Shown here one piece after another: positions 7,256-11,497 of a stretch of DNA of 37,130 bases (position 1 is the first letter of the stretch; each line of letters starts with the position of its first letter). The position numbers and the translations under genes are program-made. Origin of the DNA: an uncultured Bacteroidales bacterium (lineage in GTDB: Bacteria; Bacteroidota; Bacteroidia; Bacteroidales; Bacteroidaceae); assembly GCA_902776455.1 (NCBI GenBank), contig CACYQI010000047.1:1-37130 (forward strand), read 5' to 3'. A model generated the notes under the pieces. The model had not been told where the DNA came from and searched no databases. It saw only the letters and a program-made list of their open reading frames with translations.

Positions 7256-7315
7256 GCGTCCTTAGCTCAGTTGGTAGAGCAATTGACTCTTAATCAATGG
7301 GTCCAGGGTTCGAGA
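7256..7315 (+). tRNA. Truncated tRNA-Lys (anticodon CTT)
   Basis: The 5' acceptor strand GCGTCCT, D-arm (GCTC..GAGC), anticodon arm ATTGA-CTCTTAA-TCAAT with anticodon CTT, the variable loop GGGTC and the 5' T-stem CAGGG with TTCGAG are all present. The expected 3' T-stem CCCTG, the 3' acceptor strand AGGACGC and the discriminator base are absent: after TTCGAG the sequence runs straight into a terminator-like hairpin. I find no displaced 3' half downstream. As written it cannot fold or be aminoacylated. A small deletion or an assembly error are the two explanations. Confidence 0.85.
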
Positions 7316-7316
7316 G

Positions 7317-7345
7317 AAGGATGAACTGGATAACAGTTCATCCTT
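7317..7345 (+). terminator. Hairpin after the tRNA-Lys fragment
   Basis: Perfect 11-bp inverted repeat AAGGATGAACT / AGTTCATCCTT with a 7-base loop, beginning two or three bases after the point where the tRNA is cut. The following T-run is weak (CGTTGTT). It probably ended the original tRNA transcript. Confidence 0.6.
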
Positions 7346-9955: not shown

Positions 9956-10065
9956 TTATTTTACCATTACTTTCTTTCCGTTCACGATGTTGATGCCTTT
10001 CTGCATCTTGCCTAATCGTTGGCCAGCCAGGTTGTAAATGTTCACGCCCTTTAAAGGAGAGTTAG
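9956..10065 (-). pseudogene. 3' remnant of a T9SS cargo gene
   Basis: The last 35 or so codons read NSPLKGVNIYNLAGQRL, then GKMQKGINIVNGKKVMVK and a stop. This is the same type A T9SS sorting tail seen at the end of the 2407-6186 and 21395-25633 proteins. Nothing upstream continues a cargo protein: the frame runs into the IS110 element, and the sequence on the far side of the element is the end of the MATE gene. The rest of the gene has therefore been lost from this locus. The boundary at 10065 assumes the predicted element end. Confidence 0.75.
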
Positions 10066-10111
10066 AGCTTTCTATGTTAAATTCCAAATATTTTGACCAT
10101 TATTTTTAATA

Positions 10112-11137
10112 TTATGCTGATAATCTATATTCCGGTTTGTAAACTTGCTTGTTTTTGACCATGGAGGTGACGATATGTAGTAGTTTGTTCTTGACGTTGT
10201 TCATCGCCACAGGCATCTTTTTACCCCGACCGATAAGCCGCTGGTAGTACTGGGCGATGATAGGATTGAAACGGACGGCAGCCAATGCAGCTTGTGTCAG
10301 CATAGCTTTTATGTGCCTGTTGGCCATGTAATGCACATGAGGATCCACATGCACGCTGGTGCCCGAGTCCTGACCGAACGGGGCAATGCCATAGTAGCAG
10401 GCTATGCTCCTTGCGTTATAGTTGAACTTGCGGAAATTGTCTGTATATACCATCAGACACACAGCATTCTGGGTTCCAATACCAGGTACTGAGGTTACTA
10501 TCCTGTACACCTCAGAGAGTTCGTCTGAGGACTCAATGAGTGACGCTATTTTCCTGTCAATCTTCGCTATCTCCTTGTTGAGTTCTGAGACGATATGCTT
10601 TCCGCTCTGGGCAATCACAGTCTTGGCTGCGGACTTCTCCATCATAAGCCTCTTCTCGCCTCTGCGCACCTCAAAACTGCATCTGTGCCTTATCACCATC
10701 TGTCTGTACAGATAGTACTCTCGCAATTGAGTCAGAGATTCACTAAGTGGCTCATAGATAATGGCCTTATCGTGGTTTCTCATTGCGTATTCCGCAATCA
10801 TGGCGGCATCTGCACGGTCAGACTTCAACCGCCTTATTCCTGAGGCATCCTTGATGCATTTGGAGTTCTCCAGCCACATGTCAAATCCCCTGCCGTAGAG
10901 ATGGTTGCACAATGGCTTACTGTAGTCACCGGTGTTCTCTCCACAGAAGAGCCACAACGACGAATCTATGCCGTTTGCATTCTTCTCAACCCACTTGACA
11001 AGCAGCTTGTAACCAGACACGGAGTTCTTGAACTCATTGAAAACCCTCACCGATGTCTCGACCAGTCCTTCTGCAAAAATGACAGCCACATCAACTTTTT
11101 CTTTTGAGAAATCGATGCCAATAAATAAATTTTTCAT
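10112..11137 (-). CDS. IS110-family transposase (DEDD recombinase)
   Basis: 341 residues. The N-terminal RuvC-like domain shows Asp9 (GIDFSKE), Glu67 (CGENTGDY), Asp107 and Asp110 (KSDRADA), the DEDD tetrad of the family. A helical, charged middle (about 130-205) follows. The C-terminal Transposase_20 domain begins at SVPGIGTQNA (216-225) and carries SGTSV with the conserved serine at 261. In IS110-group elements this protein joins target and donor DNA under guidance of an RNA from the element's own 5' non-coding end; that RNA is visible upstream here. The frame is intact, so the element may be active. ATG at 11137 follows an AAAGG-type site. Confidence 0.93.
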   Translation of the reverse strand: MKNLFIGIDFSKEKVDVAVIFAEGLVETSVRVFNEFKNSVSGYKLLVKWVEKNANGIDSSLWLFCGENTGDYSKPLCNHLYGRGFDMWLENSKCIKDASGIRRLKSDRADAAMIAEYAMRNHDKAIIYEPLSESLTQLREYYLYRQMVIRHRCSFEVRRGEKRLMMEKSAAKTVIAQSGKHIVSELNKEIAKIDRKIASLIESSDELSEVYRIVTSVPGIGTQNAVCLMVYTDNFRKFNYNARSIACYYGIAPFGQDSGTSVHVDPHVHYMANRHIKAMLTQAALAAVRFNPIIAQYYQRLIGRGKKMPVAMNNVKNKLLHIVTSMVKNKQVYKPEYRLSA

Positions 11138-11169
11138 ACCTTTGTACTGTTAATTTAATTATTTGAGAA

Positions 11170-11330
11170 TTGGTCAATAGTTGTATGGACTAACACTCTA
11201 AAAAGGCTCCAGGCCGATAACTTTCTATCTGGTCTCTGCAACTATGTCGGGGAGGTCCTAAACAGAAAGTAGCCTCTGCGCTTGTGAAATCTCTGGTTTA
11301 CCTCCTCGACAGACCGATTCTTCCTTCATA
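11170..11330 (-). ncRNA. Candidate bridge RNA of the IS110 element
   Basis: Upstream of the transposase, a TACCTTTG box (11334-11341, minus strand) could start a transcript near 11327. The RNA shows two successive stem-enclosed loops. Loop 1: UGUCGAGGAGGU (11300-11311) pairs with ACCUCCCCGACA (11245-11256) with one mismatch. Loop 2: AUAGUUG (11239-11245) pairs with CAACUAU (11177-11183). This is the target-loop/donor-loop order described for IS110 bridge RNAs. Loop 2 carries AUAGAAAGUU (11219-11228), identical to the right-end top strand ATAGAAAGCT except for one U/C that still allows G-U pairing, and UUAGAGUGUUAG (11190-11201), complementary to the left end CTCACACTCTAA with one mismatch. 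RNA size and ends are inferred. Confidence 0.7.
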
Positions 11331-11497
11331 CAGCAAAGGTAAGAAACTGTCTTGAGTTGTCTGTCATCTTTCTTGTTTTTTTTTTGTTTTTATGCGACTT
11401 CGTCGCAATCCTCCGCAAAGTTAGAGTGTGAGATAAGTTTGCTTTCTGTTTGAGCTAAGTATGCTCTCTGTGCGAGGTAACTTTGATTGTTCACTTT

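Follow-up and report, generated by a model that had tools for sequence, protein, structure and literature searches.

With high confidence, we find that the window (the whole 37,130-nucleotide stretch analysed here, from an uncultured Bacteroidales bacterium) carries an IS110-group insertion sequence of Prevotella-type Bacteroidota, whose left end would encode a bridge RNA, whose insertion would be set by the guides of that RNA, and which may on rare occasions delete adjoining DNA at look-alikes of its own left end. Comparison between copies and relatives shows the position of the ends, the structure of the predicted RNA, the guide matches and the truncation or replacement of neighbouring DNA.

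The recombinase and the ends of its element

The gene at 10112–11137 (on the minus strand, as are all features of the element given below) is intact and encodes a DEDD recombinase of 341 aa with the domains of the IS110 family, matching PF01548 (4.5e-16), PF02371 (3.6e-16) and NF033542 (149.4 bits, cut-off 140) above cut-off. Only two relatives were found in the PDB at E 0.001, IS621 (8wt6, E 5.3e-22) and ISCro4 (9t56, E 6.2e-22), over query residues 5–329; the likeness to ISCro4 is one of protein sequence. Residues D9, E67, D107, D110 and S258 align with the catalytic residues D11, E60, D102, D105 and S241 of IS621 (taking an inferred offset for the PDB chain), which is likewise a DEDD enzyme with a bridge RNA in its left end (PMC11208160, PMC11208158). 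The draft genome, of 94 contigs, holds a single copy (one match by DNA, one by protein), and other genomes carry near-identical copies at different sites. Among the close relatives is L025, from the isolate Segatella albensis DSM 11370. Phages and plasmids gave 25 and 2356 records, every one below 60% identity, and viral contigs gave 29 pattern matches and 0 relatives. Two loci show further features: three copies in genome G226 (L056 and two other places) match query residues 1–241 only, two more there being full-length, and at L033 the element appears from its right flank to sit beside or inside another transposase gene, which we take by eye to be IS30-like.

Alignment of copies with unrelated flanks gives an invariant right end, AACATAGAAAGC, beyond which the DNA varies, and a left end without variation inward from about CTCTAA; the ends common to copies with different flanks are TCTAA...ATAGAA(A/T)GC or variants of these. 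In distant relatives the left flank fits the left target guide through a C, and the right flank fits the right target guide from that same C. This exchange point after C, taken together with the constant ends, places the element at 10067–11425 (1359 bp between exchange points, TCTAAC...ATAGAAAGC, outside which copies elsewhere diverge) with a core of x-C. From compared junctions and the guide register, the left core is predicted to be A-C (11426–11427, the A from the target side) and the right core G-C (10067–10068, the G from the donor side). The left end is the longer (288 nt before the ATG vs 45 nt after the stop), and insertion is sequence-specific with no target duplication beyond the core, a single shared C, as in the IS110 family.

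An earlier note on this DNA, made from its letters alone, had put a CT dinucleotide at each end and the element at 10068–11430. Other copies bear out an element at this place and shift both of its limits: the CT at 11432–11431 is flank, the true left end being 11425 with the core x-C at 11427–11426, and the T of the right-hand CT (10066) is also flank, the base after AAAGC being G or A in 9 of 10 other loci (T in L019). The window's right flank reads CTCTAAC because a left-end look-alike lies there in a host gene. Excision would yield a circle of 1359 bp whose junction, in place of the one that the note predicted, would be ATAGAAAGC|TCTAAC.

The core is N-C, with exchange predicted after the C, and not CT. 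The donor core is GC; most left target guides end in AC (the rest in GC, TC or AT) and most right target guides in GU (the rest in GC or AU). Right donor guides, L040 excepted, already have a GU before the left-end complement is complete, and left donor guides have GU in the window clade and GC, GA or GG in other elements. Right junctions read C and then mostly G or A, with T in place of C in two (L040, L047). An IS621-like CT core was found in neither donor nor target; it was rejected because the base following the C is not the same in left and right guides, nor from one junction to another. The second core base is C in nearly all junctions seen, from which it would follow that this clade exchanges after it; right ends were found with patterns derived from ends already seen, and because C and T are the sole bases that the search pattern admits after the end, the tally of C is not an independent one, and the raw letters were inspected separately. 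An intermediate reading of the core, C plus A, was ruled out once more divergent copies placed the exchange after C. The exchange point agrees with a relative of L059 that lacks the element and, by eye, with a nearby copy of the target palindrome at L051; also by eye, the uninterrupted site can be read from the mirroring second arm of the target hairpin at L038 and L039. IS621 differs in having a CT core in donor and target, the second T being almost invariant in IS621 and related orthologues (PMC11208158), and in its top strand being cut after that second core T (PMC11208158, PMC11208160).

Throughout these comparisons L001 and L031 (both the window) and L002 (the same locus as L023) were not counted twice, nor was L032 counted, its length and match position suggesting L021 found again; L028, L029, L041, L044 and L046 were used for ends only or left out altogether, and L003 and L015 (one genome, guides cut by contig ends) were inspected by eye only.

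The bridge RNA, its guides and its sites

Covariation and a covariance model place the predicted bridge RNA, with putative 5′ and 3′ ends, at 11166–11343, in the left end, as in the IS110 group and not the IS1111 group; the latter shares the recombinase family and has bridge RNAs, and differs in carrying the RNA in the right end and in its longer subterminal repeats (PMC11208160). Like that of IS621, the RNA consists of a 5′ stem-loop, a target loop and a donor loop, with left and right target guides and left and right donor guides that each include the core (PMC11208160, PMC11208158). The 5′ stem-loop (11323–11340, CCUU/AAGG) has U-A in place of C-G in L045. A stem closing both loops is present here, the outer stem pairing 11312–11321 with 11166–11175 (two-sided changes in 8/9 pairs); within it, the target-loop stem pairs 11300–11310 with 11246–11256 (two-sided changes in 8/10 pairs) and the donor-loop stem pairs 11239–11245 with 11177–11183 (helices 5 and 6), the 3′ strands being assigned by covariation. 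The earlier note had proposed just such an IS110 element, its 5′ non-coding end folding into two loops, and these two loop stems are borne out at the positions given.

A structure of 40 pairs, set by hand from the window sequence, was tested on a MAFFT alignment of 23 homologues, in which both loop stems are conserved and 87.0% of cells are paired (32.7–51.3% when slid by 1–3 columns). Changes on both sides occur in 27 of the 40 pairs, against 14.9 in shuffles, and of 500 shuffles 0 did as well on four of five measures and 11 on the fifth. Unguided RNAalifold on the same homologues gave 21 pairs, 14 with two-sided changes, most of them lying in the donor loop, the outer stem and the 5′ stem. 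Of the covarying stems that close the loops it supports the donor-loop and outer stems only; it does not predict the target-loop stem, at which the alignment rows of several distant homologues are out of step. An alignment fitted to the model, biased to the structure by construction and with one antisense row (L043), is 90.4% paired. With model R1 the held-out homologue L039 scores 161.2 bits and the window, a training sequence, 216.9 bits; with matches admitted up to E 1, the RNA model did not find L030 (30% identity). Folded alone, the window sequence is unremarkable (z -1.23, 23/200 shuffles as good); the support for the RNA, which would have to be expressed to act, comes from the comparison of homologues. 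At Rfam gathering scores the window gave only one tRNA, at 7256–7325 (+).

The donor guides mirror the element's own ends. The left donor guide, AUAGAAA-GU (11220–11228), equals the right end ATAGAAA-GC save for a wobble at the C, and the right donor guide, UUAGA-GU (11195–11201), is complementary to AC|TCTAA. Across the elements compared, all of those with both a left guide and a right end (33 of 33) show the two to be identical over 8 nt, in five versions (ATAGAAAG, ATAGAATG, ATAGAAAA, ATAGGAAG and TTAGGAAG). In 33 of 34 the right guide contains a perfect complement to the 6 nt that open the left end, across four left-end versions (CTCTAA, CTTTAA, CCCTAA and CCTTAC); both counts include several rows copied from one genome. 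L040 is the sole exception, its right donor guide UUAGAAU failing to complement the core of its left end. The segments that the earlier note had picked out, AUAGAAAGUU at 11219–11228 and UUAGAGUGUUAG at 11190–11201, are present, and its order of left guide then right guide stands; of the second guide the part about UUAGAGU holds, and the CTCACA that had been paired upstream of it is flanking DNA that differs between copies.

The target guides track the DNA beside each copy. In the window, with a register taken from 31 elements, the left target guide is AGAGAUUUC-AC (11284–11294, core AC at 11285–11284) and the right target guide UACUUUCU-GU (11262–11271), whose GU would pair with the core AC. 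Leaving the core C out of the counts, left guides match their own flank at a mean of 6.52/8 positions, compared with 2.28 for the guides of other elements, and right guides at 4.06/6, compared with 1.76 (31 elements on each side); at least 6/8 are matched in 23/31 own and 12/898 swapped comparisons on the left, and at least 4/6 in 22/31 own and 69/896 swapped on the right. When one element was kept per distinct guide (21 distinct on each side, some of the rows being copies within a genome), 0 of 100,000 permutations reached the observed sum (left 134 vs a maximum of 94, right 82 vs 69). The guides were assigned manually by a reader who knew the flanks, their register being fixed by the conserved frame of the loop; the left comparison omits L021 (7 nt of flank), L026, L039 and L052, and the right one L004, L027 and L042 (no right end or a broken transposase gene) and L056 (right end found, guide not entered). 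Guides thus match insertion sites across the family, and the window copy is among the poorly fitting ones, at 4/8 plus one wobble on the left and 2/6 on the right. Fits below 6/8 on the left number 8 of 31 (the window and L022 at 4; L004, L023, L027, L045, L051 and L057 at 5 each), and fits below 4/6 on the right 9 of 31 (the window, L023, L033, L035, L040, L047, L050, L054 and L059).

Several sites are palindromic intergenic repeats (L038, L039, L045/L051/L057 and L048/L054), comprising GGGGAC hairpins and GACGCGTCG- and CTCGAGTGAA-type palindromes, as is described for IS621 and REP.

IS110 circles are reported to rebuild a promoter across their junction (PMC11208160), and a promoter of Bacteroidetes type, in difference from IS621, probably forms across the junction here. 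The left end holds TAACTTTG (11416–11423), similar to the -7 box of the Bacteroides consensus, TAnnTTTG with TTTG near -33 (PMC7366714), and the right end holds TTTG (10085–10088), a putative -33 box lying 20 nt upstream of it across the circle junction. Among 21 distinct junctions TTTG lies at 19–20 nt in 10, TTG at 19–22 nt in 6 more and neither in 5; this likeness is a resemblance, not a test, and the boxes would act as a promoter on the predicted circle. TACCTTTG at 11334–11341 was set aside as a promoter of the RNA because it forms part of the 5′ stem, with a compensatory change in L045, and TAACTTTG is the better -7 candidate. At the start of the recombinase gene (11135–11145, and the same place in 23 homologues) the start codon follows CAAAG (CAAAA in L025 and L042) and 2–3 bases ending TATG; in reverse complement most of the 23 rows read CATAnCTTTG, a -7-like box pointing back into the bridge RNA.

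Right flanks that resemble the left end

The window's right flank, TCTAACTC, has six bases identical to the element's own left end. The flank is the last 36 codons of a host gene (9956–10066), joined to the right end at a TCTAAC equal to the left end, and in the genes of other genomes (L113, L115) the same sequence is ordinary coding DNA (...ACCCTC|TCTAACTCTCC...). The gene belongs to a family with the C-terminus NIYNLAGQRLxKMQKGINIVNGKK (window 9956–10066); the joined query matched 132 of 139 genomes of the genus at E ≤0.001, some of them in the tail.

Five copies have such a flank: the window; L050, with 6/6 to its own left end and a right-guide fit of 2/6; L059, with 5/6 to its own, different left end (CTTAC) and a fit of 2/6; L040, with 5/6 (offset set by hand) and a fit of 3/6; and L035, with 4/6, or 10/12 over a longer stretch by eye, and a fit of 1/6. 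The four lowest right-guide fits of the 31 are those of the window, L035, L050 and L059, L040 tying at 3 with L023, L033, L047 and L054. The remaining 25 of 30 elements (L039, having no left end, is absent from this list) have right flanks that share 3/6 or fewer with their own left ends. A match of at least 5/6 has a background of about 0.35–0.5% per C, and its occurrence in 4/30 gives a binomial probability of ~1e-5, the count having been made once the pattern was already apparent. Among elements with both ends, none has a left flank resembling the right end at 5/7 or better.

Relatives show that DNA to the right is missing or replaced in the window, L035, L050 and L059. For the window this amounts to about 4.2 kb: in the relative G124, ~4.3 kb separate a MATE-type gene (PF01554) from the point where the right-hand gene ends, and a complete gene of 1130 aa (no Pfam match) lies between them; the window has ~68 nt besides the element between the two blocks aligned to G124. 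At L059 the element-free G607 has the other half of the palindrome plus ~230 nt before the shared downstream DNA, at which point L059 goes straight into the look-alike; G607 itself differs there, which prevents an estimate of the length deleted. A search of 299 genomes at E 1e-15 gave no intact homologue of the right-hand gene except in the host and G607. At L050 a TonB receptor gene starts at its native codons SKYDY and matches PF00593 only from profile position 123; its frame is 388 aa. Of 18 homologous places in other genomes, 15 have open frames of 689–743 aa and the other three have shorter frames. A search of the rest of the L050 genome for the absent N-terminal portion did not find it, the best match being a 710-aa paralogue (a diverged fragment could be missed), and inversion in place of deletion was rejected on this ground. 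In L035 and its G725 counterpart the left-hand gene, a Mob_Pre relaxase, lacks its first part (profile from position 86); this part follows directly in relatives L138–L143 (75–78% identity) and is absent to the right of the element in L035/L137.

Possible origins of the flanks and their meaning

These observations would fit the following course of events. The left donor guide would match the right end and core, and the right donor guide would be complementary to the core and left end; the recombinase would excise the circle with junction ATAGAAAGC|TCTAAC, which would insert at sites of the form left target guide–AC–right target guide, with exchange after the C. In normal excision the right junction would recombine with the left junction. 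At low frequency the right end may instead join a chromosomal look-alike of the short left end (5–6 nt after a C), and a look-alike satisfying only the short right donor guide would leave the element in place and remove the intervening DNA; the window copy appears to carry the scar of such a deletion. From the flanks, then, we infer that the right end recombined with chance look-alikes of the left end and that the recombinase made the deletions. One-sidedness would follow because the left donor guide is longer than the right (~5–6 nt), and look-alike recombination would explain the one-sidedness, the flush joint and the poor right-guide fit together. The window's left fit of 4/8 is not explained by a deletion and may reflect either guide drift or further history.

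The same flanks could have arisen in a single step had the element simply inserted, with no deletion, into sites whose right half is TCTAA, a half-site with which the right donor guide could pair. We regard this as improbable, as the Mob_Pre gene of L035/L137, which continues in relatives L138–L143, does not resume on the right side of the element, the element-free relative of L059 has the palindrome's other half at the junction, and the right-hand genes of the window and L050 are broken off at native codons, the left flank being another gene or intergenic DNA. More credible, yet still doubtful as a general account, is that the left flank of one copy became fused to the right flank of another, whether through homologous recombination of two direct copies or through a false join when the metagenome was assembled: for the window either event is possible, since it comes from a draft of 94 contigs, other genomes contain near-identical copies and recombination between copies would yield unmatched flanks. 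Neither event explains why a right flank should copy the element's own left end (the post hoc ~1e-5 above, for at least 5/6 in 4/30). The genomes of L050 and L059 are recorded as 2 and 1 contigs, the left end copied at L059 is a different one (CTTAC), and the genome of the window has one copy.

The conserved structure itself could be a 5′ leader that regulates the recombinase and not a guide RNA. Structured leaders are common in general, and this one stands directly upstream of the ATG; a leader leaves unexplained the loop sequences that track the flanks and ends of each copy, and we hold this reading to be very improbable. We consider it rather probable that one-sided deletions occur in nature through bridge-RNA elements, whose short right donor guide would accept chromosomal look-alikes of the left end while the element stays.

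Bridge RNAs in IS110 elements and the agreement of their guides with flanks are already published (PMC11208160), and the putative left-end-like deletion scars are a difference of the present elements from IS621. In the literature searched, which covered few subscription papers and no preprints, one-sided deletions of this kind are not mentioned, including in passages of a paper that treats adjacent deletions for ISRm22, an element it lists as IS4 family (PMC1525189). What emerges is a clade of bridge-RNA elements in Bacteroidota whose target guides come in 21 distinct left and 21 distinct right forms, most of them fitting their sites, and whose core is not CT. If the deletion reading is true, recombinases of this type could remove neighbouring DNA via matches to a donor half-site while the element stays where it is; genomes of Prevotella and related bacteria could change in this way, and engineered bridge recombinases would need checking for such an off-target mode.
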